From assembly GCF_004362745.1 (NCBI RefSeq), contig NZ_SNXY01000007.1, positions 62,001 to 126,000 of the forward strand: 64,000 nt of DNA, written 5' to 3'. The notes under the pieces are model-generated. The model was given only the letters and a program-made list of their open reading frames with translations, was not told the DNA's origin and searched no databases. Positions 9,494-31,523 of this stretch are shown here, piece after piece; the stretch's first letter is position 1, and every line of letters starts with the position of its first letter. This DNA is from Oharaeibacter diazotrophicus (lineage in GTDB: Bacteria > Pseudomonadota > Alphaproteobacteria > Rhizobiales > Pleomorphomonadaceae). A program made the position numbers and the translations under genes.

Positions 9494-10879
9494 GTGTCCC
9501 TGAAGGCTCGCCTCGTGGGCGCGATCGCGCTCGTGCTCGTCCTGGTGCTGATCGCCGGGGGCGCGCTCACCTACAACCATGCCCAGCGCAAGGTCGAGGT
9601 CGAGATGGACGCCGCCATGGAGGTGGCGCGCAACACCGTGGCGCGCCGGCTGGAGAACCTCGGCGACAGCTACCGGCCGATCGCCTACCTCGAGGAGACC
9701 ATCGAGATCTTCGACGGCGACCGTCACGTCGCCGCGGCGCTGGTCGACGGCACGGGTGCCGAGATGAAGCGCTCGGTGATCCCGCCGCCGGCCAACGAGG
9801 TGCCGGACTGGTTCCTGAAGCTGGTGGCGCCGACCTATCCGGTCGAGCAGGTGCCGCTGCCGGTGCTCGGCAACCACCTCGGCTCGATCGCGCTCTATCC
9901 CGACCCGCGCAGCGAGGTCGACGAGGTCTGGGCCGACGTCCGGCTCAACCTGACGGTGCTCGGCGGCTTCTCGGTCGCCGCCTTCGCCTTCGTGACGCTG
10001 GTGATCGGCCGGGCGCTCGCCCCGATCACCGGCCTCTCCGAGGCGATGCGGCGGATCGGGCAGGGCGACTACGCCGTCGCGGTGCCGGTCGGCGGCTCGC
10101 CGGAGCTGGCGCTGCTCTGCCGCGGCTGCAACGACATGGCGCGCCGGCTCGCCGACATGTCGGCGCGCAACCGCCAGCTCGGCGAGCAACTGGTCCGCCT
10201 CCAGGACGAGGAGCGCGCCGAACTCGCCCGCGAACTCCACGACGAGGTCGGCCCGCTGCTGTTCGCCGTCGACGTCGACGTCGCCGAGATCGCCCGCGTC
10301 GTCGAGACCACCGGCGGCGGACCGCGCGGATCCGTCGTCGCCGCCAAGGCCGCGGCGGCGCGGCAGGCGGCGTCGGCGGCGCGCACCTACGTCCGCGACA
10401 TCCTCGGCCGGCTCCGGCCCGGGCTGATCGGCAGCCTCGGGCTCGCCGCCGCGATCCGCGAACTCGCCGCCTTTCACCAGTCCCGCGAGCCGGAGACCGC
10501 CTTCGATCTCGACCTTTCCGACGTCGGCTTCGGGCCGGAGGTCGACGCGGTCGTGCTCGCCGTGGTGCGCGAGGCGGTGGTCAACGCGGTCAAGCACGCC
10601 CGGCCGCGTCGGATCGAGATCGCGGTGGTCGACCTCGGCGGCGAGGTCGCGGTCCGCGTCGTCGACGACGGCGCCGGCCTCGCCCCGCGCGCCGGCCCGC
10701 CGGTCGGCTACGGCCTCGTCGGCATGCGCGAGCGCGTCGAGGCGATCGGCGGATCGATCGCGATCGGACCGCGGCCGACCGGGCGCGGCACCGCGGTGTC
10801 CGCGGTGATCCCGGTCGCCGGCATTCCCGTCCCCTCCGCCGCGCCGCGCGCGGCCGAAGCAGAAGGCGTCAGCCCATGA
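9494..10879 (+). CDS. NarX/UhpB-type sensor histidine kinase
   Basis: A 461-residue membrane kinase starting at GTG 9494. Seen: TM1 at residues 8-27, a periplasmic domain to about 155, TM2 near 158-178, and a HAMP-like linker (RALAPITGLSEAMRRIGQGDY). A HisKA_3 dimerisation domain follows, with phospho-acceptor motif ERAELARELHDEVGPLL near residue 250. The HATPase_c domain has VREAVVNAVKHA (N box) and GYGLVGMRERV (G box). It overlaps the response regulator gene by 4 bp (ATGA). Its position upstream of xoxF suggests control of alcohol oxidation genes; the signal is unknown. Confidence 0.92.
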   Translation: MSLKARLVGAIALVLVLVLIAGGALTYNHAQRKVEVEMDAAMEVARNTVARRLENLGDSYRPIAYLEETIEIFDGDRHVAAALVDGTGAEMKRSVIPPPANEVPDWFLKLVAPTYPVEQVPLPVLGNHLGSIALYPDPRSEVDEVWADVRLNLTVLGGFSVAAFAFVTLVIGRALAPITGLSEAMRRIGQGDYAVAVPVGGSPELALLCRGCNDMARRLADMSARNRQLGEQLVRLQDEERAELARELHDEVGPLLFAVDVDVAEIARVVETTGGGPRGSVVAAKAAAARQAASAARTYVRDILGRLRPGLIGSLGLAAAIRELAAFHQSREPETAFDLDLSDVGFGPEVDAVVLAVVREAVVNAVKHARPRRIEIAVVDLGGEVAVRVVDDGAGLAPRAGPPVGYGLVGMRERVEAIGGSIAIGPRPTGRGTAVSAVIPVAGIPVPSAAPRAAEAEGVSP

Positions 10880-11535
10880 AGGTCCTCGTCGTCGACGACC
10901 ACGTGATCGTCCGCGAAGGCGTCGCGCGCCTCCTGGCCGCGATCGACCGCGTCGAGATCCGCGAGGCCGAGACCACCCAGGACGCGCTCGCCGCCTTCCG
11001 GCGCGAGCGGCCCGACGTCGTCGTGCTCGACATCAACCTCAAGGGCGGCAGCGGCCTCGAGCTGCTCCGGCGGCTGCGCAGCGAGGATCCCGACACCCGG
11101 GTGGTGATCTTCAGCATGTATTCGGACGTGGTCTACGCCACCTCGGCGCGGCGGGCGGGAGCGATCGGCTACGTCTCGAAGAGCGCGACCTCCGACCAGC
11201 TGCTCACCGCGGTCAGGCGGGCGGCGCGCGGAGAGACCTACGTCGACACCGGCATCGCCGAGGAGATGGCGCTGTCGGCTTTCTCGCCGCAGGAGCCGTC
11301 GAGCCAGCTGACGGCGCGCGAGCTCGAGATCCTCCGGATGCTCGCCGACGGCCGCAGCCTGTCCGACATCGCCGACACCCTCGGCGTCGCCTACAAGACG
11401 GTGGCCAACACCTGCACGCGGATCAAGGAAAAACTCGGCGTCGAGCGCACCGCCGACCTGATCCGCTTCGCGATCGAGAACCAGCACATCCGAGTTCTCG
11501 GACAAACGCGCGACGTCTCGTCGCGGATCGACTGA
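10876..11535 (+). CDS. LuxR/NarL-family response regulator
   Basis: A 219-residue regulator with a receiver domain: acidic pair VDDH at residues 7-10, phospho-acceptor Asp in VVLDINLKGG near 54, and conserved Lys in YVSKSATSD near 105. A LuxR-type helix-turn-helix follows at about 148-205, with LTARELEILRMLADG and KTVANTCTRIKEKL. It is translationally coupled to the upstream kinase, forming one two-component system. It is the gene immediately before xoxF. LuxR-type regulators (MxaB) are known to act on methanol dehydrogenase genes in methylotrophs, so xoxF is a reasonable target. Confidence 0.93.
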   Translation: MKVLVVDDHVIVREGVARLLAAIDRVEIREAETTQDALAAFRRERPDVVVLDINLKGGSGLELLRRLRSEDPDTRVVIFSMYSDVVYATSARRAGAIGYVSKSATSDQLLTAVRRAARGETYVDTGIAEEMALSAFSPQEPSSQLTARELEILRMLADGRSLSDIADTLGVAYKTVANTCTRIKEKLGVERTADLIRFAIENQHIRVLGQTRDVSSRID

Positions 11536-11887: not shown

Positions 11888-13753
11888 ATGGCACTTCGAG
11901 CGAAATGGCTCGCCGGCGCCCTCTGCCTCGCGCTCGGCGCGATCGGCGGAATCGGGGCGGCACTCGCCAACGACGAGATCATCGAGAGGACCAAGAACGA
12001 CAACCTCTGGCCGGCGCCCGGCCGCGACATGGCGCTGACGCGCTATTCCGCCCTGTCCGACATCAACAAGGACACGGTCGGCCGCCTGCAGATGGTGTGG
12101 TCGCAGTCGACCGGCGCCCTGCGCGGCCACGAGGGCCAGCCGGTGGTCGTCGAGATCGACGGCAAGCCGATGATGTTCTTCGTCTCGGCCTGGCCGAACA
12201 TCGTCCAGGCGCTCGACCTGTCGGACCCGGACAATCCGAAGGCGATCTGGAACTACGTCAAGAAGACCGACCGCGACGAATCCGCCGTGCCGCGCGCCTG
12301 CTGCGACGTGGTCAACCGCGGCCTCAACTACGCCGCCGGCAAGGTGATCTTCCACACGCTCGACGGCTACCTGATCGCGCTCGACGCCAAGACCGGCAAG
12401 GAGGCCTGGGTCGTCAAGCACGCCTATCCCGAGCACGGCGAGACCCACACCGGCCCGGCGCTGGTCGCCGACAAGTACGTCATCGCCGGCTTCGGCGGCG
12501 ACGAGTTCGCCGCCCGCGGCCGCATGGTCGCCTACGACATCGAGACCGGCAAGGAAGTCTGGAAGTGCCATTCGACCGGCACCGACGCGGACACCTGCAT
12601 GACGGCCGAGACCAACAAGGCCCACCCGGAATACGGCACCGCCGGCTCGGACATCTCGCTGAACAGCTACCCGGAAGGCGAGTACAAGATCGGCGGCGGC
12701 TCGCCCTGGGCGTGGTTCTCCTACGATCCGGAACTGAAGCTGGTCTACGCCGGCACCGGCAACCCGGGCCACTGGTCGCCGTCCTACCGCTGCGGCGACG
12801 ACACCCACGAGGCCTGCAACACCGGCAAGTGGGACAACAAGTGGTCCATGACCATCATGGCCCGCAAGGTCGACACCGGTGAACTGGTCTGGGCCTACCA
12901 GAAGACCCCGTTCGACCAGTGGGACTACGACGGCGTCAACGAGAACATCCTGGTCGACATGGAAGTCGACGGGACGATGCGCAAGACGCTGGTCAACTTC
13001 GACCGCAACGGTTTCGCCTACGTCCTCGACCGCACCGACGGCACGCTCCTGCGCGCCAACAAGTTCGTGACGGTGAACTGGGCCGAGAGCGTCGACCTCA
13101 AGACCGGCCGCCCGGTCAAGGTCAAGGAGCACTCGCCGTTCGAAGTCGGCCGCAACGTTCAGGCCTGCCCCTCCGCCATGGGCGGCAAGGACCAGCAGCC
13201 GGCGTCGGTCGACCCGAAGGAGCCGTGGATGTTCTACGTACCCACCAACAACTGGTGCATGGAGGACGAACCGCAGCAGCGCACCCACACCCAGCAGGGC
13301 ACGGTCTACGTCTTCGCCAACGTCTACATGTACCCGGAAGTCCCGGGCGTGACGGGCAAGCTGAAGAAGTTCAACGTGCTCACCGGCGAGACCGTGTGGG
13401 AGATCCCCGATCCGTATCCGAACTGGTCTGGCACCCTGACCACCGCCGGCGGCCTCGTGTTCTACGGCTCGCTCGGTGGCGACTTCCGCGCCGTCGACCG
13501 CGAGACCGGCAAGGTGGTGTGGCAGCGCAAGCTCGGCTCCGGCATCATCGGCAACCCGATCGCCTACAAGATCGACGGCAAGGAATACGTCTCGGTCTTC
13601 GCCGGCATCGGCGGCTGGATCGGCCTGCCGATCACCGCGGGCCTCGACCTCAGCGACAAGTTCGGCGCGATCGGCGCGACGGCGATGGCCAAGGCGGCCG
13701 GCCTCGACAAGATCCCGCAGGGCGGCATGCTCTACACCTTCCGCGTCTACTGA
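11888..13753 (+). CDS. xoxF: XoxF-type lanthanide-dependent PQQ alcohol (methanol) dehydrogenase
   Basis: A 621-residue periplasmic quinoprotein with a signal peptide (cleavage near AALA-N28). It oxidises methanol or other primary alcohols with PQQ and passes electrons to a c-type cytochrome. Seen: the vicinal disulfide RACCD (C138-C139), GTGNP near 290, and WDYDGVNE, where D346 is the catalytic Asp and D348 is the second Asp. The second Asp is Ala in calcium-dependent MxaF and coordinates the lanthanide in XoxF. Eight-bladed propeller W-motifs (such as KEAWVV and GKVVWQRKL) recur. No mxaF-type small subunit gene is present. Followed by a stem-loop terminator. Confidence 0.95.
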   Translation: MALRAKWLAGALCLALGAIGGIGAALANDEIIERTKNDNLWPAPGRDMALTRYSALSDINKDTVGRLQMVWSQSTGALRGHEGQPVVVEIDGKPMMFFVSAWPNIVQALDLSDPDNPKAIWNYVKKTDRDESAVPRACCDVVNRGLNYAAGKVIFHTLDGYLIALDAKTGKEAWVVKHAYPEHGETHTGPALVADKYVIAGFGGDEFAARGRMVAYDIETGKEVWKCHSTGTDADTCMTAETNKAHPEYGTAGSDISLNSYPEGEYKIGGGSPWAWFSYDPELKLVYAGTGNPGHWSPSYRCGDDTHEACNTGKWDNKWSMTIMARKVDTGELVWAYQKTPFDQWDYDGVNENILVDMEVDGTMRKTLVNFDRNGFAYVLDRTDGTLLRANKFVTVNWAESVDLKTGRPVKVKEHSPFEVGRNVQACPSAMGGKDQQPASVDPKEPWMFYVPTNNWCMEDEPQQRTHTQQGTVYVFANVYMYPEVPGVTGKLKKFNVLTGETVWEIPDPYPNWSGTLTTAGGLVFYGSLGGDFRAVDRETGKVVWQRKLGSGIIGNPIAYKIDGKEYVSVFAGIGGWIGLPITAGLDLSDKFGAIGATAMAKAAGLDKIPQGGMLYTFRVY

Positions 13754-13804: not shown

Positions 13805-13901
13805 CGGCATTTCTACTTTATAAATATTCTGCATTACACGATTTTAATTTGATCATACGGTGCCGGCCGCAGGATAAAGCGGCTCGGGAGGATGCGTGGT
13901 G

Positions 13902-15689
13902 ATGCGGATCGGTTCGATACTGACGGTGCTCTTGGCCGTGCAGGCGGCGGTGCTCGGCGCCGCGGCCGCCGAGGAGGCCCCGGCCTTCAACAAGCAGATC
14001 CCGTATCAGCAGATGACGCCGGCGGAGCGGACGGCGGCGCGCAAGGCGGCGCGCGACCAGCGCTACGACACGCTGAAATTCTGCGCCGATCCGGGCAACC
14101 TGCCGCTGTCCGACGTCCACGGCGCCGGCTTCCAGAACCGGATCGCCGAGGTGGTGGCGAAGCGGCTCGGCGCCAAGGTCTCGACCTTCTGGCGGCCGTT
14201 CCTCGAGCGCGGGCTCACCCGCGAGACCTTCGACAACAACGAGTGCGACATCCTGATCGAGGTGCCCTACGGCTACGAGCGCATCCTGACCACGGTGCCG
14301 ATCTACCGCTCGACCTACGTGCTGGCGACGCGGACCGACCGGAACTTCACCTTCTCCGGCTTCGACGACCCCCGCCTCGAGGACATCCGCATCGGCGTGT
14401 TCCAGCACTCGGCCTTCCGCGAGGCGCTCGCCCGCCACGGCCGCAAGGAGAAGCTCGACGTCCACGTCATCAGCCAGGATGCCGATCTCGAGCCGGAGAA
14501 GCAGCCCTGGCGGCAGGTGCAGAAGGTGGTGGACGGCACGCTCGACGCCGCCGGCGTCTGGGGGCCGTTCGCCGGCTGGCTGAAGAAGCAGGGCGCGCCG
14601 CTGACGCTGCAGCCGGTCAACCTGATGGAGGACCAGGTGGTCCTCGAGTTCGACCTCGCCTTCGGCGTGCGCACCAACGATCCCATCCTGAAATACGCCC
14701 TCGACTTCGCCCTCGAGGACTCCAGGGACGAGATCCGGGCGATCCTCGACGACTTCGGCGTGCCGCTGGTGCGCTGCTCGGCCTGCGTGGTCGACGGCGA
14801 CCTGCCGTCCCACGGCACATATTTCGACCGCATCGTCGACGAGGGCCAGAAGCGCTTCACCGAGGTGGCGCCGGAGGAGACCCGCCGCATCGACGCCGCC
14901 AAGGCCTCGCCCGACCAGATCGTCACCGTCGCCAAGGTCGACGCCGAGATCGCGGCGGGGGCGAAGGCGCAGGATCTCCTCGAGGGCGCGGTGCTCGCCT
15001 CCGACGAGGCGCGCATCGAGGCGCTGATCGCCCGCGGTGCCGACGTGAACCGGCGTTCCAAGCTCGGCGCGCCCGCGGTGATCACCGCGGCGCAGAGCCG
15101 CGACACCGAGCTCGTCGCCTTCCTGCTCGACCACGGTGCCGACGTCGAGGCGACCGACCTCTCGGGGTGGACGCTGCTGCAGCACGCCATCCTGCGCAAC
15201 CACCAGCCGACGGTGAAGCTGCTGGCCGAGCGCGGCGCCGACCTCGGCCGGCAGACGCCGAACGGGGTGTCGCCGCTCGGCCTCGCGCTCTCGGAGGGCA
15301 AGTACTTCGCCGCCGAAACGCTGATCGCCGCCGGCGCGCCGGTCGACGAGCGCTTCGGCACGGAGGCGCTGACGCCGATGATGGTGGCGGCCACCCAGTA
15401 CGAGGCCAACAACCGCGACGCCCAGATCGCACAGGGGCCCTCGATCGTCGCGCTCGCCGAGCAGTTGGTCGCCAAGGGCGCCGACCTCGACGCCCGCACC
15501 CGCCACGGCGTCACCGCGGCGATGATCGCGGCCGGTTTCGACAACGCCGCGATGATCGGTCTGCTCGCCAAGGCCGGCGCCGACCTCGCCGCCACCGACA
15601 ACGCCGGCCGCTCGGCCCTCGACGTCGCCCGCGAGGCCGACGCCGCCGCGGCGGTGCAGGCGCTCACCCTGTTCCAGAAGAAGCCGTGA
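13902..15689 (+). CDS. xoxJ: MoxJ/XoxJ-like periplasmic binding protein fused to ankyrin repeats
   Basis: A 595-residue exported protein (signal peptide ends near AAAAEEAP, residue 25). Residues about 45-290 resemble the quinoprotein-dehydrogenase-associated periplasmic-binding fold (MoxJ/XoxJ): LKFCADPGNLPLS, NNECDILIEVPYGYERILTT and IRIGVFQHSAFREAL. XoxJ is thought to help mature or activate XoxF. Residues about 355-590 form a chain of six or seven ankyrin repeats (for example LIARGADVNRRS, LLDHGADVEATD). The known family ends at the binding fold, so the fusion is unusual. GTG codons at 13896 and 13899 are alternative starts; ATG 13902 is ten bases after GGGAGG. Confidence 0.85.
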   Translation: MRIGSILTVLLAVQAAVLGAAAAEEAPAFNKQIPYQQMTPAERTAARKAARDQRYDTLKFCADPGNLPLSDVHGAGFQNRIAEVVAKRLGAKVSTFWRPFLERGLTRETFDNNECDILIEVPYGYERILTTVPIYRSTYVLATRTDRNFTFSGFDDPRLEDIRIGVFQHSAFREALARHGRKEKLDVHVISQDADLEPEKQPWRQVQKVVDGTLDAAGVWGPFAGWLKKQGAPLTLQPVNLMEDQVVLEFDLAFGVRTNDPILKYALDFALEDSRDEIRAILDDFGVPLVRCSACVVDGDLPSHGTYFDRIVDEGQKRFTEVAPEETRRIDAAKASPDQIVTVAKVDAEIAAGAKAQDLLEGAVLASDEARIEALIARGADVNRRSKLGAPAVITAAQSRDTELVAFLLDHGADVEATDLSGWTLLQHAILRNHQPTVKLLAERGADLGRQTPNGVSPLGLALSEGKYFAAETLIAAGAPVDERFGTEALTPMMVAATQYEANNRDAQIAQGPSIVALAEQLVAKGADLDARTRHGVTAAMIAAGFDNAAMIGLLAKAGADLAATDNAGRSALDVAREADAAAAVQALTLFQKKP

Positions 15690-15735: not shown

Positions 15736-16560
15736 GTGAAGACGTTCGTGTCATCCGCCGTCGCCGCCGCCGCGCTGCTCGTCGCCGCGGGGGCGGCCCT
15801 CGCGATGGGGCCGGCGCCGCTCGAGCGGCCGAGCCTCGTCGTCCGCGCCGCGATCCAGGGGCCGATCGACGAGAAGTACAAGATCCCGGTACCGAAGGAG
15901 CAGGGCAAGATCGCCGCCGGCGCCGAGCGCGACTATCTGGGCGGCAAGCTGAAGATCGCGGTGACCGAGGTCGCCAACGACGCGATCAAGGTCAAGGTCA
16001 ACGGCGGCGAGGAGACGTCGGTCAAGGCGAGCGAGCTGACGCTGTTCCAGGTCTCCGACGCCGAGATGTGCACCGTCGTCTACCTCGGCAAGTCCGGCCA
16101 GAAGGCGATCGTGGCCGGGCGCTGCGATCCGGTGACCGACGAGCTGAAGGCCGCCGCCGCCGAGCAGCTCGCGCATCGCGGCGACAAGGTGGTCGGTCCG
16201 CGCGAGGTGATCGCCGGCGCCGCCAAGGGCACGCTGAAGAACCCCTACGAGGGCAACGCGCAGGTCGCCGCCGAGGGCCACCAGCTGTTCCTCGCCAACT
16301 CCTGCAACGGCTGCCACGGCGGCAACGGCGGCGGCGGCATGTGCCCGCCGCTCTCCAACGAGGTCTGGGTCTACGGCTCGGATCCCGACACGCTGTTCCG
16401 CCTGATCACGCTCGGCAGCGACGATCTCCAGGCCGAGGGCTACTCGCGCAAGGGCCGCGAGAACGTGGTCGGGCCGATGCCGCCCTACGGCGACATCATC
16501 GAGAACAGCGACGACCTCTGGAAGATCGTCACCTTCATCCAGTCGCTGCACCAGAAGTGA
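15736..16560 (+). CDS. xoxG: c-type cytochrome, XoxG-like electron acceptor with N-terminal extension
   Basis: A 274-residue exported protein (signal peptide ends near ALA-M24) starting at GTG 15736. The C-terminal cytochrome c domain has the haem motif CNGCH at residues 190-194 and a probable axial Met in VVGPMPPYG (M248). It is the expected one-electron acceptor of the quinoprotein dehydrogenase, passing electrons to the terminal oxidase. Residues about 25-150 form an extension without a haem site, containing cysteines at about 112 and 130. It lies 46 bp after the xoxJ-like gene and 7 bp before the next start, so an operon is likely. Confidence 0.85.
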   Translation: MKTFVSSAVAAAALLVAAGAALAMGPAPLERPSLVVRAAIQGPIDEKYKIPVPKEQGKIAAGAERDYLGGKLKIAVTEVANDAIKVKVNGGEETSVKASELTLFQVSDAEMCTVVYLGKSGQKAIVAGRCDPVTDELKAAAAEQLAHRGDKVVGPREVIAGAAKGTLKNPYEGNAQVAAEGHQLFLANSCNGCHGGNGGGGMCPPLSNEVWVYGSDPDTLFRLITLGSDDLQAEGYSRKGRENVVGPMPPYGDIIENSDDLWKIVTFIQSLHQK

Positions 16561-16567
16561 GGTGGGG

Positions 16568-17815
16568 ATGCGCCGGCGCCCGGGTTTCGACCTGATCGGA
16601 CCGCTGACCGCGGTCCTCCTGACGGCGGTCGCTGTCGCGGCGGTCGCCGTGCGCCCCGTGGCGGCGGCCGACGCGGCCAAGGCCCGCGCGCCCAGGGTGA
16701 CGGCGCACTACGCCTATCTCGGCAAGGCCTATCCGGATCCGCCGCCGTTGTCGCTGCTCGACCCGATCGTCGACGACGAGGGCCTCGCCGGCGCCCGGCT
16801 CGGCGACCGCGAGAACAAGGCGACCGGCCGACTGCTCGGCGACGACTTCGTCATGGACGAGGTGGTCGTGGCCCGGGACGGCGACGTCGCCGCCGCCGCG
16901 GACGCCCTGTTCGCGGCCGGCGTGCGCTTCGTGATCGCCGACCTCGACGGTGTCGACCTGCTCGCGGTCGCCGCCCGGTCGGGCGCGGCCGACGCCATGA
17001 TCCTCAACATCCGCGACGGCGACGACGACCTGCGCCAGTCGCGGTGCCGCGCCAACGTCTTCCACGTGGCGCCGAGCTACGCCCAGCGCACCGACGGCCT
17101 CGCGCAATACCTGATCTGGAAGCGCTGGAAGAACTGGCTGCTGGTCGCCGGCACCGCCCCGGCGGACCTCGCCTACGCCGCCGCGGTCGAGCGCGCGGCG
17201 ACCAAGTTCGGGGCCGAGATCGTCGAGCGCCGCTCCTACGCCTTCGAGGCGGGGTCGCGCCGGGTCGAGTCCGGGCACCAGCAGGTCCAGACCCAGATGC
17301 CGATGGTGACCCAGGGCGCGCCGGACTACGACGTCGCCTTCGTCGCCGACGCCTCGGAGACCTTCGGCGAGTATCTCTCCTACCAGACCGACCGGCCGCG
17401 GCCGGTGGTCGGCACCCACGGTCTCGTCGGCGTCGGCTGGCACCGCGCCTTCGAGCAGTTCGGCGGCATGTCGCTGCAGTCCTCGTTCGAGCGCCGGGCC
17501 AAACGCTGGATGCGCGAGCGCGACTACGACGGCTGGCTCGCCGCCAAGATCTTCGGCGAGGCGGTGACCCGGACGGGCTCGGCCGCGCCGGCGGACGTGC
17601 GCGCCTACGTCACCGGCCCGGAGTTCCGGATCGCCGGCCACAAGGGCATCGGCATGACCTTCCGGCCCTGGGACAACCAGCTGCGCCAGCCGATCCTCGT
17701 CATGGGGCCGCGCGCGCTGGTCTCGATCTCGCCGCAGGAGGGCTTCCTGCACGAACGCTCCGAACTCGACACGCTGGGCTTCGACCTGCCCGACAGCACC
17801 TGCCGCTTCCCCTGA
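16568..17815 (+). CDS. PQQ-system ABC transporter substrate-binding protein (copy 1)
   Basis: A 415-residue periplasmic protein with an N-terminal signal (hydrophobic residues 10-35) and a type I (Leu/Ile/Val-like) binding fold. It matches the family of substrate-binding proteins linked to PQQ-dependent alcohol dehydrogenases: VTAHYAYLGKAYPDPPP, DDEGLAGARLGDREN, YLIWKRWKNWLLV, FRPWDNQLRQPILV and SISPQEGFLH. It is paralogous to the gene at 19627. No ABC permease or ATPase gene is in the window, so its transporter is encoded elsewhere or it acts as a solo sensor or binding protein. ATG 16568 follows a GAGGTGGGG ribosome-binding site. Confidence 0.85.
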   Translation: MRRRPGFDLIGPLTAVLLTAVAVAAVAVRPVAAADAAKARAPRVTAHYAYLGKAYPDPPPLSLLDPIVDDEGLAGARLGDRENKATGRLLGDDFVMDEVVVARDGDVAAAADALFAAGVRFVIADLDGVDLLAVAARSGAADAMILNIRDGDDDLRQSRCRANVFHVAPSYAQRTDGLAQYLIWKRWKNWLLVAGTAPADLAYAAAVERAATKFGAEIVERRSYAFEAGSRRVESGHQQVQTQMPMVTQGAPDYDVAFVADASETFGEYLSYQTDRPRPVVGTHGLVGVGWHRAFEQFGGMSLQSSFERRAKRWMRERDYDGWLAAKIFGEAVTRTGSAAPADVRAYVTGPEFRIAGHKGIGMTFRPWDNQLRQPILVMGPRALVSISPQEGFLHERSELDTLGFDLPDSTCRFP

Positions 17816-17838: not shown

Positions 17839-18813
17839 ATGCCCCGCCACCCGATCCCCGCGCTGCTCTCGGCGGCCGTCCTCGCGGCCTCGGCCGCGCC
17901 GGCCTTCGCGGGGGCGATCTTCGTCTCCAACGAGAAGGACAACACGGTCACCGTGCTCGACCCCGCGACCTACGCGGTGGTGAAGACGATCGAGACGGGC
18001 GCGCGGCCGCGCGGCATCGTGATCTCGCGCGACGGCCGCGAGGTGTTCGTCTGCTCGGGCGACGACGACCGCATCGACGTGATCGACACGGCCCGCCTCG
18101 AGATCGTGCGGACGCTCGACTCCGGGCCAGACCCGGAACTGCTCGACGTCGATCCGAAGGGCGAGCGGATCTACATCGCCAACGAGGACGACGCGATGGT
18201 GACGGTGATGGGCCGCGCCGACGGGGCGGTCGCGGCCGAGATCCCGGTCGGCGTCGAGCCCGAGGGTGTCGCGATCTCCGAGGATTCCAAACGGATCGTC
18301 GTGACCTCCGAGAGCACGTCGATGGCCCATTTCATCGACGCCGACTCGCTCGAGGTGCTCGCCAACGTGCTGGTCGACACCCGGCCGCGCTATGCCCGCT
18401 ACGCGCCGGACCAGAAGACGGTCTGGGTCACCTCCGAGATCGGCGGCACGGTGTCGGTGATCGACGCCGAGACCTTCGCGCCGGTCGGCCGGATCGGCTT
18501 CGAGGTGGCGGGCCTCAGGCCCGAACTGATCCAGCCGGTCGGCCTGCGCTTCTCGCGCGACGGCAAGCTCGCCTTCGTCGCGCTCGGTCCGGCCAACCGC
18601 GTCGCCGTGGTCGACACCGCGACGCGGGCGGTCAAGGACTACGTGCTGGTGGGCCAGCGGCCCTGGCACATGGACCTCTCCGCCGACGGCGCCAAGCTCT
18701 ACGTCGCCAACGGCCTCACCAACGACATGACCGTCGTCGACGTCGCGACGCTGACCGCGGAACGCTCGGTGCCGGTGGGTCGGCTGCCGTGGGGGATCGC
18801 GACGATGCCCTGA
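17839..18813 (+). CDS. YVTN-type beta-propeller protein of the PQQ-alcohol system
   Basis: A 324-residue exported protein (signal peptide ends at PAFA-G25) composed of seven YVTN/NHL-like propeller blades. The repeat is of the form VSNEKDNTVTVLDPATYAVV / TGARPRGIVISRDGREVFV. Members with this neighbourhood are PQQ-dependent-catabolism-associated beta-propellers; their role is not established. A strong GGAGGAG ribosome-binding site lies seven bases before ATG 17839. It is 23 bp after the first substrate-binding protein gene, probably in the same operon as the cytochrome. Confidence 0.88.
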   Translation: MPRHPIPALLSAAVLAASAAPAFAGAIFVSNEKDNTVTVLDPATYAVVKTIETGARPRGIVISRDGREVFVCSGDDDRIDVIDTARLEIVRTLDSGPDPELLDVDPKGERIYIANEDDAMVTVMGRADGAVAAEIPVGVEPEGVAISEDSKRIVVTSESTSMAHFIDADSLEVLANVLVDTRPRYARYAPDQKTVWVTSEIGGTVSVIDAETFAPVGRIGFEVAGLRPELIQPVGLRFSRDGKLAFVALGPANRVAVVDTATRAVKDYVLVGQRPWHMDLSADGAKLYVANGLTNDMTVVDVATLTAERSVPVGRLPWGIATMP

Positions 18814-18943: not shown

Positions 18944-19354
18944 ATGTCCCGTATGCGCACACTCGTCTCTGCCGCGCTCGCCGCGGCCGGCCTCGCCGCG
19001 CTCTGCAGCCCCGCCACCGCCGTCACCGGCAAGGAGGCACTCGCCCAGCTCAACAAGGACGGTGACGACACCTTCGAGATCGTCGAGGTGATCGACTGGG
19101 GCACCCAACTGTTCTCGGCGATCAATCCGGACGGCGACACCACGCTGGAGCCCGACGAGACCGAGGGCCGCCTGACCGAGGCCGACTGGGCCGCCGTCAA
19201 CAAGGACGGCGACCAGACGCTCGAGATGGACGAGTGGCTGTCGATCGTCCGCAGCCGCTTCGAGGCGGCCGACGCCGACAAGGACGGCAAGCTGACCGAG
19301 GCCGAGCTCGACACGCCGGCCGGCCAGTCGCTGCTGCTCGTGCTGATCAAGTGA
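18944..19354 (+). CDS. lanmodulin-like periplasmic four-EF-hand protein
   Basis: A 136-residue exported protein (signal peptide ends near SPATA-V27) with four 12-residue EF-hand loops at 37-48, 61-72, 86-97 and 110-121. The inter-loop gaps are 12, 13 and 12 residues, and the tail is TPAGQSLLLVLIK. As I recall the lanmodulin sequence, it has the same 12-13-12 spacing and a PAGSALVNLIR tail. Loops 1-3 are atypical: Asn at position 1, Gly at 4 rather than 6, Glu at 9 and 12; only loop 2 (NPDGDTTLEPDE) has lanmodulin's Pro2. Loop 4 (DADKDGKLTEAE) is near canonical. Location within a xoxF locus supports a role in lanthanide binding or trafficking, but metal preference is inferred. Confidence 0.8.
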   Translation: MSRMRTLVSAALAAAGLAALCSPATAVTGKEALAQLNKDGDDTFEIVEVIDWGTQLFSAINPDGDTTLEPDETEGRLTEADWAAVNKDGDQTLEMDEWLSIVRSRFEAADADKDGKLTEAELDTPAGQSLLLVLIK

Positions 19355-19531: not shown

Positions 19532-19626
19532 CTTCAGCCCACCGGTGGCGCCACCCATAGTCGCGGGCCCCGTCGACCGGATGTGCGAGGCCCCCGGTCG
19601 TGTCCCCCGTGCCGGTGGAGGTCGCC

Positions 19627-20844
19627 ATGTCCCGAGACGCCGCATCCCGGATCGCCGCCGCGCTGCTGCTGGCGGTCTGCGCCGGATCCGCCGTACCGGC
19701 GGCGGCCGCCACCAAGGCACCCCCGGTCGAGATCCGGATCGGCTATCTGAAGTGGGGCGTCGAACACGTCACGCTGTCGCTCTACGACCAGCCGGCCGCC
19801 GACGACGGTCTCGCCGGCGCGCGGCTCGCGGTGGCCGACAACAACACGACCGGCAGCTTCACCGGCCAGTCCTTCGCGCTGGTCGAGAAGACCGTGACCT
19901 CGACCGCCGAGGCGCTCGCGGCCCAGGCCGAACTCGCCGCCGCCGGCGTCACGCTGGTGGTCGCCGAGGTGCCGGCCGAGACCGTGCTCGCGCTCGCCGA
20001 CGCCTCGGGCGCGCCCGACCAGCTGATCTTCAACGTCGCCGCCCCCGAGGATTCGCTGCGCGAGGCGGACTGCCGGGCCGACGTCGTCCACGTCACGCCG
20101 ACCTACTCGATGCTGGCGGATGGGCTGGCGCAGTATCTGGTGTGGAAGCGCTGGCCGCGCTGGTTCCTGCTCTCCGGCGCGCTGCCGAAGGACGAGCTCT
20201 GGGCCGACGCGCTGAAGGCGGCGGCGACCAAGTTCGGCGGGCAGGTCGTCGAGGAGCGCGTCTATTCCTCGACCGACACCGCCCGGCGCACCGACAGCGG
20301 CCACATCCAGGTCCAGCAGCAGCTGCCGGTGTTCACCCAGAACGCCCCCGAGCACGACGTCGTGGTGGTCGCCGACGAGAGCGACGTCTTCGGCGCCTAC
20401 ATCCCCTTCCGCACCTGGGAAGCCAAGCCAGTGGCCGGGTCGGCGGGCCTGATGCCGACGAGCTGGAACCCGAACCACGAGCAGTGGGGCGCGATGCAGA
20501 TGCAGAGCCGGTTCGCCAAGTTCGCCGGACGGCCGATGTCGGCGCGCGACGCCGACGCCTGGACGGCGGTGCGGATCGTCGGCGAGGCGGCGACGCGGGC
20601 GAAGACCGGCGACGCCGCCGCCATCCGCGCCTACGTGCTCGGGCCGAAGCTGGAGGTCGCCGCCTTCAAGGGCCAGAAGCTGACGATCAGGCCCTGGAAC
20701 CATCAGCTGCGTCAGCCGATCCTGCTGACCGACACCCGCACGCTGGTGTCGGTGTCGCCCCAGGAGGGCTTCCTGCACGCCGTCACCGAACTCGACACCC
20801 TCGGCGTCGACCAGCCCGAGACGAAGTGCCGGCTGCCGAAGTAG
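19627..20844 (+). CDS. PQQ-system ABC transporter substrate-binding protein (copy 2)
   Basis: A 405-residue exported protein paralogous to the gene at 16568. It shares EIRIGYLKWG, DDGLAGARLAVADNN, DGLAQYLVWKRWPRWFLL, IRPWNHQLRQPILL and VSVSPQEGFLH. The signal peptide ends near AAAA-T29. ATG 19627 is preferred over one nine codons upstream because GGTGGAGG lies seven bases before it. The two copies flank the beta-propeller and lanmodulin-like genes. Possible roles include binding PQQ, an alcohol or a metal complex; the sequence does not discriminate. Confidence 0.85.
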   Translation: MSRDAASRIAAALLLAVCAGSAVPAAAATKAPPVEIRIGYLKWGVEHVTLSLYDQPAADDGLAGARLAVADNNTTGSFTGQSFALVEKTVTSTAEALAAQAELAAAGVTLVVAEVPAETVLALADASGAPDQLIFNVAAPEDSLREADCRADVVHVTPTYSMLADGLAQYLVWKRWPRWFLLSGALPKDELWADALKAAATKFGGQVVEERVYSSTDTARRTDSGHIQVQQQLPVFTQNAPEHDVVVVADESDVFGAYIPFRTWEAKPVAGSAGLMPTSWNPNHEQWGAMQMQSRFAKFAGRPMSARDADAWTAVRIVGEAATRAKTGDAAAIRAYVLGPKLEVAAFKGQKLTIRPWNHQLRQPILLTDTRTLVSVSPQEGFLHAVTELDTLGVDQPETKCRLPK

Positions 20845-23866: not shown

Positions 23867-25498
23867 TCAAGCCCGGCCGAGCTTCTCGGCGCCGCCGCCG
23901 AGCGCGGGGCCGGCGGTGGGGTCCTCGTCCTCGGCGAGGTCGCCGACCAGCGTCTCGGTGGTCAGGATCAGCTTGGCGACCGAGGCGGCGTTCTTCAGCG
24001 CCGTGGTGGTGACGCGCACGGGATCGACGATGCCGGCCTCGTACATGTTGCCGAAGGTGCCGCGCGCGGCGTCGTAGCCGAAGCCGCCGTTGACGGCGGA
24101 GACGCGGGCGACGACGTCGTCGGCGCTGCCGCCGGCGTTGGTCACGATCCGCCACAGCGGCCGCGTCAGCACCGACTTCACAAGCCTGACGCCGGCGGCG
24201 ACGTCGCCGTCGGTGGAGGCGAGGAGGTCGTCGAGCACGCCGCCGACCTGGGCGAGCGCCGAGCCGCCGCCGGCGATCACGCCCTCCTCGGCCGCCGCCC
24301 GGACGGCGGAGAGCGAATCCTCGATCAGCTGGATCGTGCGCTTCTGCTCGACCGGGGTGACGCCGCCGGCGTAGAGCACGGCGGTGCCGCTGGAGAGCTT
24401 GGCGAGGCGCTCGCGCAGCTTGTCCTGCTCGATGTTGGGCGGCGCGAGCTCGAACTGGCGCTGCACCTGCGCCCGCCGTGCCGCTATCTGCACCGGATCG
24501 CCGTGGCCGCGGATGATCGCGGTGTGGCTGGCGCTCGTGCGCACGCGGTCGGCCGAGCCGAGGTCCTCGGGCCTGACGTCCTCGAGGCGTCCGCCGAGGT
24601 CGCGGGCGACGACCCGGCCGCCGGTGAGGATCGCCATGTCCTCGAGCAGCGCCTTGCGCCAGTGGCCGTATTCCGGCGGGTGGACCACCAGGTAGCGGCC
24701 GGCGCCGCTGCGCCCGAGCAGGGCCACCACCACCTCCGGCGCGACCTCCTCGGCCACGATCGTCAGCGGCCGGCCGGCCTTGGCGGCGATGGCGCGGACG
24801 GGCTCGAGCGCCTGCGGGTCGCGGATCTTGAGGTCGGTGATCAGGATCAGCGGGCGCTCCTGCACCGCCTCCATCTTCTCCGGATCGGTCACCATGTGGT
24901 GGGAGAGATAGCCGCGGTCGAAGGACATGCCCTCGACGACCTCGAGCGTCGTCTCGGTGGTGACGCTGAACTCGGTGGTGATGACGCCGCTCGCCCCGAC
25001 CCGGTCGAAGGCCTCGGCGACGAGGGCGCCGAGCTTGGCATCGGTCGCGGCGATGGTGGCGACGGCGGCGAGGTGGCCGCCGGCATCGGCAGGCCTGGCG
25101 TGGGCCTTCAGCGCGTCGACCACCCGGCCGACGGCGAGGTCGATGCCGCGGACGAGGTCGACCGCCTTGGCGCCGCGCTCGTTGGCCTCGACGCCGCGCT
25201 GCACCAGCGCGTTGGCGAGCACGATGGCGGTGGTGGTGCCGTCGCCGGCGATCTCGTTGGTCTGCATCGAGACCTCGCGGACCACCTGGGCCCCCATGTT
25301 CTCGAAGCGATCGTGCAGCTCGATCTCGGCGGCGATGCTGACGCCGTCGCGCGTCACCATCGGCGTGCCGATGGGGCGGTCGATCATGGCGTTCATGCCC
25401 TTCGGCCCCAGCGTCGGCTCGACCGCCGCCGCCAGCTGGGCGACGCCGCGGGCGAGGGCACGGCGGGCATGCTCGTTGTGGATCAGCAATTTGGGCAT
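23867..25498 (-). CDS. mimG: GroEL-like chaperonin of the monooxygenase operon
   Basis: A 543-residue chaperonin 60 homologue. Seen: the ATP-binding EPTLGPKGMNAMID near residue 30, the catalytic GDGTTTAIVLA near 87, the apical domain VTTETTLEVVEGMSFDRGYLS, and EEGVIAGGGSALAQ near 405. It diverges from housekeeping GroEL and ends in GGGAEKLGRA rather than a Gly-Gly-Met tail; no groES gene is adjacent. In mycobacterial and other mim/prm clusters a dedicated chaperonin (MimG) is required to fold the large hydroxylase subunit. It is last in the eight-gene operon, 111 bp after the DUF59 gene. Confidence 0.92.
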   Translation of the reverse strand: MPKLLIHNEHARRALARGVAQLAAAVEPTLGPKGMNAMIDRPIGTPMVTRDGVSIAAEIELHDRFENMGAQVVREVSMQTNEIAGDGTTTAIVLANALVQRGVEANERGAKAVDLVRGIDLAVGRVVDALKAHARPADAGGHLAAVATIAATDAKLGALVAEAFDRVGASGVITTEFSVTTETTLEVVEGMSFDRGYLSHHMVTDPEKMEAVQERPLILITDLKIRDPQALEPVRAIAAKAGRPLTIVAEEVAPEVVVALLGRSGAGRYLVVHPPEYGHWRKALLEDMAILTGGRVVARDLGGRLEDVRPEDLGSADRVRTSASHTAIIRGHGDPVQIAARRAQVQRQFELAPPNIEQDKLRERLAKLSSGTAVLYAGGVTPVEQKRTIQLIEDSLSAVRAAAEEGVIAGGGSALAQVGGVLDDLLASTDGDVAAGVRLVKSVLTRPLWRIVTNAGGSADDVVARVSAVNGGFGYDAARGTFGNMYEAGIVDPVRVTTTALKNAASVAKLILTTETLVGDLAEDEDPTAGPALGGGAEKLGRA

Positions 25499-25573
25499 AG
25501 CTCTCCTCCTTCCCGCGCGGGCGCGGTTCTCGTTGGCGGCGCCGGACGGCGTCGCGTGGTGTCGTCCCCGCCT

Positions 25574-25600
25574 CGCGACGCTCCGACCGGGAGCGTCGCG
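25574..25600 (-). other. intercistronic stem-loop before mimG
   Basis: An 11-bp perfect stem (25574-25584 / 25590-25600, arm CGCGACGCTCC) with a five-base loop lies in the gap between the DUF59 gene and mimG. It may tune relative chaperonin expression. Confidence 0.5.
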
Positions 25601-25609
25601 GGCGCGGTG

Positions 25610-26419
25610 TCAGGCCGTGTGGGCGGAGGGGCCGGCGCAGCCTCTCGGCGGCACGCGATCCAGGATGAAGTCGACCAGCGTCGGTTCGCCGTCGACCATC
25701 TCCACCTCCTTGTAGCGCGTTCCCTTGAGCCCCCGGCAGAGCGCGCCGGAGAACTCCATGTTGATGCGCACGGCCCTGAGGTCGGCGAGATGGCCGTCGA
25801 GGTCGGCCGGGCCGAGCACGGCGCCCTCGTAGCTGCGGAACGCCGGCGCGTCGGTGCCGCAGCCCGGCCAGCGCAGCGCGACCGCCTCGAGATAGCGCCC
25901 GATCGCGTCGTCGGGTCCTGCCGACGGCCGCGCCGCGGCGAGGGCGGCGAGGTCCATGGTCAGGAGCGTCGCGTCGGTGAGGGTGCGCCGGAGATCGAGC
26001 AGCACCGTCTCCTGGCGCCGCTTGAACGCCTTCTCGCGGAACTTGGCGCGCAGGGCCGAGAGGTCGTCCTCGACGGCGAGCGCGCCGAAGATCTCGGGGA
26101 ACGAGCGCCCGGCGGCGAGGCCGGCGTTGACGTCCTCGGCGAACATGTGGTCGTGCAGGGTCAGCCGGTGGGCCGGTGCCCAGGACAGGCCCTCGACGGC
26201 GGCGCGCACGTCCTCCAGCATCAGGAACACGAAGTTCGGCGAACACCAGTAGGTCGGCAGCCGGAAGTCGACGACGACGGTGCCGTCGGCGAGGATGTCG
26301 GCGCGCTCGACGAAACCCATGTCCACGATGGACTCGTCGAGTTCGGGATCGGTGACGGCCCGGAGCCGCCGCCAGAGTTCCCCCTGGCGGCCTCCGTCGA
26401 GCGTGGCGACGGTGCTCAT
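25610..26419 (-). CDS. MIP18/DUF59-domain protein of the monooxygenase operon
   Basis: A 269-residue protein with an N-terminal MIP18 (DUF59) domain: WRRLRAVTDPELDESIVDMGFV at 14-36 and a conserved Cys in PTYWCSPNF near 60. The C-terminal 140 residues are not recognised and include two further Cys (RWPGCGTD and GALCRG). DUF59 proteins assist iron-sulfur or metal-centre assembly, as PaaD does for its oxygenase. A homologue is commonly encoded in propane/acetone binuclear-iron monooxygenase operons. It starts 5 bp after the amidohydrolase stop. A role in assembling the di-iron or Fe-S centres is inferred. Confidence 0.82.
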   Translation of the reverse strand: MSTVATLDGGRQGELWRRLRAVTDPELDESIVDMGFVERADILADGTVVVDFRLPTYWCSPNFVFLMLEDVRAAVEGLSWAPAHRLTLHDHMFAEDVNAGLAAGRSFPEIFGALAVEDDLSALRAKFREKAFKRRQETVLLDLRRTLTDATLLTMDLAALAAARPSAGPDDAIGRYLEAVALRWPGCGTDAPAFRSYEGAVLGPADLDGHLADLRAVRINMEFSGALCRGLKGTRYKEVEMVDGEPTLVDFILDRVPPRGCAGPSAHTA

Positions 26420-26424
26420 CGTCG

Positions 26425-27447
26425 TCACTCGGCCGCGGCCAGCATCGGTCCGGCGGCGATCGCGGCCTTCTTGGCGGCGACGTCGATGTCGTAGATCCGC
26501 GCCGCGTTGAGGCCGAGGATCTTCTCCTTGATCTCCGGCGTCAGCTGCACGCCGCGCTCGCGCGCGATGTCCTCGGGCAGCTCGAACGCCCAGAACTTCT
26601 CGACCAGCCAGCGCGGCGTCCAGATGCCGTAGTCGGAGCCGAACAGCAGCTTGTCCGGACCGACCCAGAACAGGAGCTCGGCGATCACCTCGGCGAAGTA
26701 GCGCGGGCGCGAGTGGATGAAGGGCAGGGCGACGGCGAGGCCGCCGTAGACGTTGGTCTCCTGCACGGCGATCCAGCAGAAGTCGTCGAGGCGCGGCAGG
26801 CCGCAGTGCTCGACGATCCAGTTCAGGCCCTGGAAGTCGGTCGCCGCGTGGTCGACGTCGTGGACGTCGAAGGCGTCCTTGTTCAGGGGGATGATGGTCG
26901 GGCCCTTGTGGACGTGGATGTTGCGGATGCCGAGCTTCTCGCACAGCTCGAAGCAGCGGTAGGCGTCGGGGTCGTCGAGCTTCCAGCCCTTGGAGGCCCC
27001 GTTCCACTCGGCCGTGTACATCTTCACGCCCTTGATGTCGTAGGTCTCCTTCATGAAGTGGATGTACTCGAGCGCCTTCTCGCCGTCGCGCGGATCGAAG
27101 GCGCCGTTGACGATGAAGCGCTCGGGATAGCGCGCCGCCACAGCGGCGTTGCGCTCGATGGTGTTGAAGCCGTTCTTGTAGAAGTCCTTGAGATAGGTCG
27201 ACTGCACGATCGCGACGTCGTCCGGGCCGTCGACGAACAGATCGCGGTAGAGGTCGTCGGCGCTGTACTTCTCGAACTTCTCCTTCGGCCACAGCTGCTC
27301 CTTCGGGCTGAGCGCGGTGTGGTAGCCGTAGAAGCACTCGATGAACTGCTTGCCGTGGACGTTGCGCTGGTTCTCCGGGCTGCCGTCCCAGAAGTGGGTG
27401 TGGCCGTCGACGACGAAGATTTCCTTGCCTTCGGGCGTGATGTACAT
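26425..27447 (-). CDS. amidohydrolase-superfamily (TIM-barrel) protein of the monooxygenase operon
   Basis: A 340-residue metal-dependent hydrolase/decarboxylase-type TIM barrel. Seen: VDGHTHFWDG (HxH metal ligands) near residue 14, RNIHVHKGPTIIPL near 175, WIVEHCGLPRLDDF near 211 and the terminal LLFGSDYGIWTP (catalytic Asp) near 271. Genes of this family are conserved in mim/prm operons, but their reaction is not established. ACMSD-like decarboxylases share the fold. Position between adh and the DUF59 gene suggests either a catabolic step or hydroxylase maturation. Confidence 0.85.
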   Translation of the reverse strand: MYITPEGKEIFVVDGHTHFWDGSPENQRNVHGKQFIECFYGYHTALSPKEQLWPKEKFEKYSADDLYRDLFVDGPDDVAIVQSTYLKDFYKNGFNTIERNAAVAARYPERFIVNGAFDPRDGEKALEYIHFMKETYDIKGVKMYTAEWNGASKGWKLDDPDAYRCFELCEKLGIRNIHVHKGPTIIPLNKDAFDVHDVDHAATDFQGLNWIVEHCGLPRLDDFCWIAVQETNVYGGLAVALPFIHSRPRYFAEVIAELLFWVGPDKLLFGSDYGIWTPRWLVEKFWAFELPEDIARERGVQLTPEIKEKILGLNAARIYDIDVAAKKAAIAAGPMLAAAE

Positions 27448-27488
27448 GGTGCTGCTCCTCCACTAGGGTTCCACGGGGACGTCGGGTC

Positions 27489-28565
27489 TCAGGTCGTGAT
27501 CGCGACCTTGAGGACGCCGTCGCGCTGGTTGGCGAAGAGGTCGTAGGCCTCTTCGATCTGGTCGAGCTTGAAGCGGTGCGTGACGAGGCCGCCGAGGTCG
27601 ACGCGGCCCGAGGCGATGACCGAGAGCATCCGCCGCATCCGCTCCTTGCCGCCCGGGCAGAGCGACGTGCGGATCGACTTGTCGCCGAGGCCGGCGGCGA
27701 AGGCGTCCAGCGGGATCCTCAGGTCGGTCGAGTAGACGCCGAGGCTCGACAACACGCCGCCGGGGCGCAGGACGCGCAGCGCCGCCTCGAAGGTCGCCTG
27801 GGTTCCGAGCGCCTCGATGGCGACGTCGACACCGCGCCCGTCCGTCAGGCGCATGATCGCCTCGACGGGGTCCTCCTTCTTGAAGTCGACGACGTCGGTG
27901 GCGCCGAGACGGCGCGCCATTTCCAGCCGGGCGGGTACCGTGTCGACGGCGACGATGGTGGTGGCTCCCATCAGCTTGGCGCCCGCGGTGGCGCACAGGC
28001 CGATCGGTCCCTGTGCGAAGACGGCCACGGTGTCGCCGATCCGGATGCCGCCGGTCTCCGCGCCGGCGAAGCCCGTCGACATGATGTCGGGGCACATCAG
28101 GACCTGCTCGTCCGTGACCGCGTCGTCGACCGGAGCGAGATTGGCCATTGCGTCGGGCACGCAGACGTACTCGGCCTGGCAGCCGTCGATCGTGTTGCCG
28201 AACTTCCAACCGCCGATCGCCTTCCAGCCGTGGCGGGTGCCGGCGCCGTCCTGCGATCCGCAGCCGCACAGGCAGGCGTGGCTCCAGCCCGAGGGGGTGA
28301 TGGCGCCGGCGATGACGCGCTGCCCCTCGCGGAAGCCCGAGACGCCCTTGCCCAGCTTCTCGATGATCCCGACCGGTTCGTGTCCGACGGTCAGGCCCTT
28401 GGCGACCGGATACTCGCCCTTGAGGATGTGGACGTCGGTGCCGCAGATCGTCGTGGTGGTGACCCGGATCAGCGCGTCCTGTGGCCCGATGTCGGGGATC
28501 GGCTTGTCCTCCAGGACGATGCGTCCCTTCTCGACGAAAACGGCCGCCTTCATCTTCGCTGCCAT
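27489..28565 (-). CDS. zinc-dependent alcohol dehydrogenase (monooxygenase operon)
   Basis: A 358-residue medium-chain dehydrogenase. Seen: the catalytic zinc site ICGTDVHILKGEYP (C41) and GHEPVGIIEKLG (H63, E64). A CLCGCGSQDG cluster replaces the usual four-cysteine structural zinc lobe of class I enzymes. The Rossmann fold is GPIGLCATAGAKLMG near 190. Similar to NAD(P)-linked secondary alcohol dehydrogenases such as isopropanol dehydrogenase. As the gene follows mimD, it probably oxidises the alcohol made by the monooxygenase (for example 2-propanol to acetone). The substrate is inferred from context. Confidence 0.88.
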   Translation of the reverse strand: MAAKMKAAVFVEKGRIVLEDKPIPDIGPQDALIRVTTTTICGTDVHILKGEYPVAKGLTVGHEPVGIIEKLGKGVSGFREGQRVIAGAITPSGWSHACLCGCGSQDGAGTRHGWKAIGGWKFGNTIDGCQAEYVCVPDAMANLAPVDDAVTDEQVLMCPDIMSTGFAGAETGGIRIGDTVAVFAQGPIGLCATAGAKLMGATTIVAVDTVPARLEMARRLGATDVVDFKKEDPVEAIMRLTDGRGVDVAIEALGTQATFEAALRVLRPGGVLSSLGVYSTDLRIPLDAFAAGLGDKSIRTSLCPGGKERMRRMLSVIASGRVDLGGLVTHRFKLDQIEEAYDLFANQRDGVLKVAITT

Positions 28566-28615
28566 GACCTTCTCCCTGTTTCCGGACGGCCCTCCCGCCG
28601 CCCGTGCCGTTTCGG

Positions 28616-28636
28616 CGGGGCGGCAGAGCCGCCCCG
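28616..28636 (-). other. intercistronic stem-loop between mimD and adh
   Basis: CGGGGCGGC (28616-28624) and GCCGCCCCG (28628-28636) form a 9-bp stem with a three-base loop just downstream of the mimD stop. It is one of several stem-loops in gaps of this operon. Confidence 0.5.
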
Positions 28637-28658
28637 TCCGTCTTCGGGTCCGGAAGGA

Positions 28659-29027
28659 TCAGATGAACTCGAACACCTCGTCCATGTCGCCGAACAGGAT
28701 CACGGTGTTGTCGTCGATGCGGACCATCCTGCCGTAGTGGGTCGAGGTGTTGACCTCGAAGATCTCCGCGGTCATCTCGCGGCCGAGGTACTCGCCGATC
28801 TCGTCCATCTTGAAGATCAGCTTGCCGTCGCCGTCGATGCGGATCATCGCCGGCTGGTAGGTGACGACGACGCCGGGCTTCTTGCCCATGAACTCGGCGA
28901 TGGCGCGCGCCTCGACCGAGTCGTTCATGGTGACCCCGCACTGGTGCGAGATCGTCTGCTCGAAGGTGATGTCCTTCATGGACTTGAAGATGTTCGCCTG
29001 GCTGGCGTCCCGCGCTGCGACGGACAT
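28659..29027 (-). CDS. mimD: monooxygenase coupling/effector protein (MmoB/DmpM family)
   Basis: A 122-residue cofactor-less effector protein. The MmoB/DmpM domain spans residues 25-115, with VTMNDSVEARAIAEFMGKKPGVVVTYQPAMIRIDGDGKL and DEIGEYLGREMT. This is the fold that binds the hydroxylase and tunes oxygen activation and regioselectivity. ATG 29027 is preceded by GGAG. The gene is fourth in the mim order, after the hydroxylase small subunit. Confidence 0.93.
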   Translation of the reverse strand: MSVAARDASQANIFKSMKDITFEQTISHQCGVTMNDSVEARAIAEFMGKKPGVVVTYQPAMIRIDGDGKLIFKMDEIGEYLGREMTAEIFEVNTSTHYGRMVRIDDNTVILFGDMDEVFEFI

Positions 29028-29082
29028 GTCTTGTCTCCTGGAATTGCCGGATTGGTGACGGGCCGGCCGGATGGCCGTGCGA

Positions 29083-29116
29083 CCCGCGAAGTCCCGGTCT
29101 GGCGGGACTTCGCGGG
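29083..29116 (-). other. intercistronic stem-loop between mimC and mimD
   Basis: A 13-bp perfect stem (29083-29095 / 29104-29116, arm CCCGCGAAGTCCC) with an eight-base loop begins ten bases after the mimC stop. It could slow 3' exonucleases or partly terminate, adjusting the MimC to MimD ratio. Confidence 0.6.
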
Positions 29117-29125
29117 GAGCGGGGT

Positions 29126-30184: not shown

Positions 30185-30237
30185 GGTGTTTCTCCCTTGT
30201 CCTCTGTTGTTCCGCTTGTATTCCCGGTCGGCGGCCC

Positions 30238-30353
30238 AGATCATTCTCCGACCAGGTCGCACGCCATGGTCGATTGGAGATTGCTCCGGCATATTGAATC
30301 TGGAGCGATTTCTCATCGACCTGATGCTTCCGTCAGGTCGGAAAGCGCTCTAG
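30238..30353 (-). repeat. dispersed hairpin-forming intergenic repeat, copy B
   Basis: On the minus strand this begins CTAGAGCGCTTTCCGACCTG and contains the stem CGACCTGA...TCAGGTCG, then AGAAATCGCTCCAGATTCAA and a second stem region with a GGAGAATG end. It matches copy A (53264-53381) along its whole length with high identity in the first 60 bases. It fills most of the gap between mimB and mimC. The TAG stop codon of mimB is inside the repeat's terminal CTAG. Confidence 0.8.
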
Positions 30354-31414: not shown

Positions 31415-31480
31415 CGTTGCTTTCCTCCCAAAGCTTCGCCGTCGCCGTCCGAGCGGGCCGGACGGTGGCGTCGTGCGGTG

Positions 31481-31506
31481 CGGAGGCCGGCGGGTGCCGG
31501 CCTCCG
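31481..31506 (-). other. intercistronic stem-loop between mimA and mimB
   Basis: CGGAGGCCGG (31481-31490) and CCGGCCTCCG (31497-31506) form a 10-bp perfect stem with a six-base loop, starting 18 bases after the mimA stop. Confidence 0.55.
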
Positions 31507-31523
31507 TCCGAGGGTCGAAGGGC

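Follow-up and report, generated by a model that had tools for sequence, protein, structure and literature searches.

The window, a stretch of 64,000 nucleotides of contig NZ_SNXY01000007.1 from Oharaeibacter diazotrophicus, carries a lanM gene that follows the genes of a XoxF1 cluster (Table 1). The lanM reading frame is intact from the ATG at 18944 to the stop at 19354 and is preceded by AAGGAG. As originally predicted, it encodes an exported protein of 136 residues, with a putative Sec-type signal peptide whose predicted cleavage position matches the first residues of mature PDB chains. A lipoprotein reading was rejected from the sequence, as Cys22 lies outside any canonical lipobox. The term lanthanophore, which the original prediction used, is applied to small secreted chelators and does not fit a periplasmic protein. 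The gene starts 130 bp past the beta-propeller gene and is followed by a second TIGR03863 gene. A scan for a promoter and a terminator around lanM found none, and co-transcription with xoxF1 is unproven because of the 130-bp gap that precedes lanM.

Table 1. Features of the lanM locus and of the adjacent XoxF1 cluster, in coordinates of the window (G127 is a host-family genome described in the text).
Feature	Coordinates	Strand	Basis or remark
Sensor histidine kinase of the XoxF1 cluster	9494..10879	+	same order in G127
Response regulator of the XoxF1 cluster	10876..11535	+	L076; same order in G127
xoxF1, lanthanide-dependent methanol dehydrogenase, clade 1	11888..13753	+	WDYDGVNE, Asp pair
XoxJ/MoxJ-like binding domain fused to C-terminal ankyrin repeats	13896..15689	+	domain matches
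Cytochrome c, XoxG-like by position	15736..16560	+	weak MoxG match
PQQ-ADH-associated ABC substrate-binding protein 1 (TIGR03863)	16562..17815	+	family match
PQQ-associated beta-propeller (TIGR03866)	17860..18813	+	family match
lanM, Hans-type lanmodulin precursor, 136 aa	18944..19354	+	homology, loops, model
Sec signal peptide (predicted), 26 aa, cleavage ~ATA/VTG	18944..19021	+	sequence reading
EF loop 1, NKDGDDTFEIVE, complete Hans-type ligand set	19052..19087	+	precursor residues 37-48
EF loop 2, NPDGDTTLEPDE, complete Hans-type ligand set, Pro2	19124..19159	+	precursor residues 61-72
EF loop 3, NKDGDQTLEMDE; D88, E94, D96 correspond to Hans-LanM D85, E91, D93	19199..19234	+	precursor residues 86-97
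Arg103, counterpart of Hans-LanM Arg100 (dimer network)	19250..19252	+	sequence comparison
EF loop 4, DADKDGKLTEAE	19271..19306	+	precursor residues 110-121
Second TIGR03863 binding protein, LutA-like	19600..20844	+	family match, identity to lut-like paralogue

The xoxF setting that had been proposed for the gene is real and belongs to clade XoxF1. The xoxF1 product has its best PDB match in 7o6z (849 bits; next best 558), which we take, in part from the title of PMC8546591, to be XoxF1 of Methylacidimicrobium thermophilum AP8, and the second aspartate of the lanthanide site (DxD) is present. The cytochrome c, in contrast, reaches 36 bits against the MoxG model, whose cut-off is 147.8, and is XoxG-like by its position. 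Two of the supposed PQQ-linked binding proteins belong to TIGR03863, while a third is XoxJ-like and fused to ankyrin repeats; further genomes likewise have XoxJ and ankyrin matches in their XoxF1 clusters (L067, L069, L071), and a literature search for such fusions found no paper. The second TIGR03863 protein is 68-69% identical to one from another locus of the host, a lut-like ABC cluster, but only 47% identical to the first, and is therefore best called LutA-like, LutA itself being presumably a TIGR03863 member as judged from cluster order. The host's lut-like cluster sits at another site of the genome and contains no lanM.

Besides XoxF1, the host has an mxaF cluster and encodes two more PQQ dehydrogenases in which the DxD motif is present (L072, L073, L074). 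It is likely to possess a Ca/lanthanide switch, and owing to these enzymes XoxF1 need not be the sole client of a lanthanide-binding protein. Beside the xoxF1 cluster lies an operon for a soluble diiron monooxygenase (23867-33269, minus strand), which encodes the alpha subunit, reductase, beta subunit, an MmoB/DmpM-type coupling protein (28659-29006), a Zn-ADH, an amidohydrolase and GroEL and is flanked by a sigma-54 regulator gene on the plus strand. The monooxygenase possibly oxidises an alkane or alkene and thereby feeds XoxF1.

The suggestion that the product is lanmodulin-like was borne out by homology, modelling and phylogeny. In a phmmer search against the PDB the top match was the La-bound protein 9pi2 of Ancylobacter lacus (E = 4e-48), followed by the solved lanthanide-binding LanM of Hansschlegelia quercus (Hans-LanM, 8dq2, E = 1e-43) and by LanM of Methylorubrum extorquens (Mex-LanM, 6mi5, E = 2e-17). 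The mature protein was modelled in AlphaFold2 with 24 relatives; the model has a mean pLDDT of 95.2 and predicts the three-helix bundle of the LanM fold, and Foldseek aligned it to 8dq2 with a TM score of 0.93 and also to 8fnr, 8fns (0.87) and 6mi5. The four EF loops of 12 residues are separated by 12, 13 and 12 residues, inside the LanM range of 12-13 and as originally described, Pro2, expected in at least one loop of a LanM, is present in loop 2, and the C-terminal tail contains the predicted PAG motif (TPAGQ). In a tree of 33 LanMs, many forks of which are weakly supported, the protein lies inside the Hans clade (support 94/99), adjacent to Xanthobacter LanMs (93/83) and with these inside a Xanthobacter/Ancylobacter group (94/94). 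It does not group with calmodulin-like proteins. Over the mature part it is 72% identical to 9pi2 and to a Xanthobacter LanM, the threshold for the Hans cluster being at least 65%. Generic Pfam EF-hand models match as well, which would suit a calmodulin-like calcium protein merely resembling lanmodulin, but these models cannot separate LanM from calcium EF-hands and were set aside, and such a protein is effectively ruled out by sequence, spacing and fold, namely by the E-value of 1e-43 to Hans-LanM against 0.015 at best for calmodulins, the loop spacing of 12-13 residues, the TM score of 0.93 against at most 0.42 for calmodulin-type folds and the acidic ligands at positions 3, 5, 9 and 12 of loops 1-3. 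It is thus very probable that the product is a Hans-type lanmodulin that binds lanthanides.

The NCBIfam model for lanmodulin (NF053806) has a curated cut-off of 135 bits and leaves out the Hans clade, including the experimentally verified Hans-LanM, which scores 102.5 bits; the score of 97.9 bits of the protein described here is therefore no argument against its membership, and the cut-off does not define LanM. With this cut-off, genes of the Hans clade are under-annotated.

The loops had been described as non-standard and diverged. The residues were read correctly, with Asn1, Gly4 and Glu9 in loops 1-3 and Pro2 in loop 2 only, but they differ from the Methylorubrum prototype alone: members of the Hans cluster, which was described in 2023 together with solved structures and already includes the genus Oharaeibacter (PMC10232371), normally carry Asn1 and Glu9. 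Loops 1-3 of Hans-LanM bind La by a monodentate Asn1, by bidentate Asp3, Asp5, Glu9 and Glu12 and by the carbonyl of residue 7, resulting in ten-coordinate sites without water, and in the dimer Arg100 of the partner chain touches Asp85 and Glu91, while Asp93 holds this arginine (PMC10232371). All of these ligands and the complete dimer network (D88, E94, D96, R103) are kept in the protein from O. diazotrophicus, whose loops 1-3 each contain Asn1, Asp3, Asp5, Thr7, Glu9 and Glu12. Taking N1, D3, D5, T/S7, E9 and E12 as the Hans pattern, it is complete in loops 2 and 3 of 16/16 Hans-clade rows (query counted) and in loop 1 of 14/16, the exceptions being Ancylobacter crimeensis and Hansschlegelia plantiphila. 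What was read as non-standard is thus the signature of a known subfamily, and the protein is a new sequence of the Hans cluster and not a diverged kind; the 2023 set may already include it or a close copy. The original prediction also held that affinity or selectivity may differ from known lanmodulins, which would amount to a new functional class with a metal preference of its own. Small differences from Hans-LanM could be brought forward for it, namely Gly4 and Phe8 (loop 1), Asp3 for Asn in loop 4 and an additional tryptophan in helix 1. However, Hans-LanM has the identical residue at every side-chain ligand position in loops 1-3 and throughout the dimer network, making a new class quite improbable. 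An affinity and selectivity unlike those of Mex-LanM is a fair expectation, and such a difference was already measured for Hans-LanM. Helix 1 of the dimer interface reads VIDWGTQLF here and VIHAGATTF in Hans-LanM, which makes the strength of the dimer uncertain.

Among the relatives, several natural variants were observed. LanM of A. crimeensis (L006:10001-10411) has a degenerate loop 1 (GKKPTDTLTVQE) next to Hans-type loops 2 and 3 and constitutes a variant with one site fewer. In the protein of H. plantiphila (L007:9932-10333), loops 1 and 4 are Mex-like (DGDKDGTLDIAE, DPDKDGTLDAKE) and loops 2 and 3 are of the Hans type, making it a natural chimera useful to dissect selectivity. In the LanM gene of genome G375 (L021:1486-1860) the frame is lost past loop 3, owing either to an error in sequencing or to disruption of the gene. 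A LanM-like protein of genome G210 (L020:1501-1920), 40% identical and on a very long branch, has Asn1 and Glu9 in loop 3 and an arginine at the dimer position, its other loops being degraded.

A LanM-like match was found in 52/397 genomes of the order. The host family is represented by 19 relatives, all without such a match, and two of these possess xoxF1 (90% and 87%). The better preserved of their clusters (G127) ends at the propeller gene and lacks lanM, and the other (G260) is truncated. Together with the position in the tree, the absence from host-family relatives suggests that the host lineage acquired lanM from a Xanthobacteraceae-like source; loss of lanM in other lineages stands as the alternative. 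A search of PLSDB yielded no plasmid-borne relatives. In the 13 other Hans-clade genomes sampled lanM is not linked to a XoxF1 cluster, no xoxF was seen in the lanM loci of Xanthobacter, Ancylobacter and Hansschlegelia (12.8 to 20.4 kb), and elsewhere lanM was seen within 20 kb of a XoxF1 cluster only in genome G177, which encodes a Mex-type LanM. To our knowledge, the XoxF1 setting of a Hans-type lanM is new, and it is the only part of the system for which no description was found. Within 20 kb of lanM a TIGR03863 gene is present in 15/33 non-Hans genomes, with ~0.5 expected by chance, and in 0/13 Hans-clade genomes, while the window has one; the counts were tabulated by hand and genomes of the same genus are not independent, so that no precise test can be derived, but a linkage of lanM to TIGR03863 genes is supported.

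Taken together, the homology, loops, model and tree, the behaviour of Hans-LanM (PMC10232371), the location of XoxF1 upstream and of the LutA-like gene downstream and the 15/33 linkage argue for an exported, periplasmic lanmodulin of the Hans type. After removal of the signal peptide, the chain of about 110 residues would be largely unfolded without metal and would fold upon metal binding into the compact three-helix bundle, in which loops 1-3 each wrap one lanthanide with Asn1, Asp3, Asp5, the carbonyl of residue 7, Glu9 and Glu12, while loop 4 is probably a weak site by analogy to EF4 of Hans-LanM. With light lanthanides bound, a dimer would be favoured, Arg103 of each chain extending into its partner's loop 3 (D88, E94, D96). 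Acting between uptake and XoxF, the protein would most probably buffer light lanthanides in the periplasm and pass them on, serving the XoxF1 encoded upstream; the chances that its role is tied to XoxF1 in particular appear about even. Deletion of lanM in Methylobacterium aquaticum 22A leaves XoxF-dependent growth unimpaired (PMC9260416), so that delivery to XoxF by LanM is not established. In Methylocella silvestris, lanthanide represses and does not induce the second Xox-MDH (PMC9291206), and a lanM next to xoxF1 may hence serve scarcity or sensing instead of loading.

A credible though somewhat less probable alternative is that lanM serves lanthanide uptake of the lut type, handing the metal to the LutA-like protein and an inner-membrane ABC transporter, with the adjacency to xoxF1 being incidental. 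The LutA-like gene that follows lanM has its nearest paralogue in the host's lut-like ABC cluster, and in genome G238 a TonB-receptor-like gene, lanM, a TIGR03863 gene, a propeller gene and an ABC permease gene follow each other. However, neither a TonB receptor gene nor genes for an ABC transporter were seen beside lanM in the window, and the lut-like cluster of the host manages without lanM. Returning to the reading in which the protein serves XoxF1, a rather speculative extension, which we consider unlikely, is that a XoxF1 cluster with its own two-component system captured a metal-size-sensitive, dimerising Hans-type LanM, whose dimer state would gauge or gate light lanthanides for this single enzyme system. 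With lanM beside xoxF1, the cellular role of lanmodulin can be tested within a single locus. The protein also extends the natural repertoire of Hans-type lanmodulins, a kind in use for separating Nd from Dy, by a sequence whose small loop differences are testable.

Among the known systems nearest to the protein, Hans-LanM (8dq2, 8fnr; PMC10232371) shows 66-67% identity over the mature protein and the same side-chain ligands in loops 1-3, dimer-network residues, spacing and predicted fold. In loop 1 the protein from O. diazotrophicus has Gly4, Thr7 and Phe8 where Hans-LanM has Asn4, Ser7 and Leu8; it further differs by Asp3 for Asn3 in loop 4 and by the extra tryptophan in helix 1, and in the Hansschlegelia loci lanM does not lie beside xoxF1. 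The Ancylobacter lacus protein 9pi2, on which a literature search found no paper, shares an identical loop 2 and Hans-type loops 1-3 but differs at non-ligand positions of loops 1 and 3 and has Asn3 in loop 4. Mex-LanM from M. extorquens AM1 (6mi5, 8fns) has the four EF loops, the spacing, the fold and the C-terminal PAG in common; in contrast, it is 39% identical, and its loops have Pro2, Asp9 and solvent ligands and lack the dimer arginine. In the lut uptake cluster of M. extorquens lanM is likewise close to a gene for a periplasmic binding protein (PMC7391723), whereas in O. diazotrophicus it follows the xoxF1 accessory genes and the lut-like ABC genes are located elsewhere.
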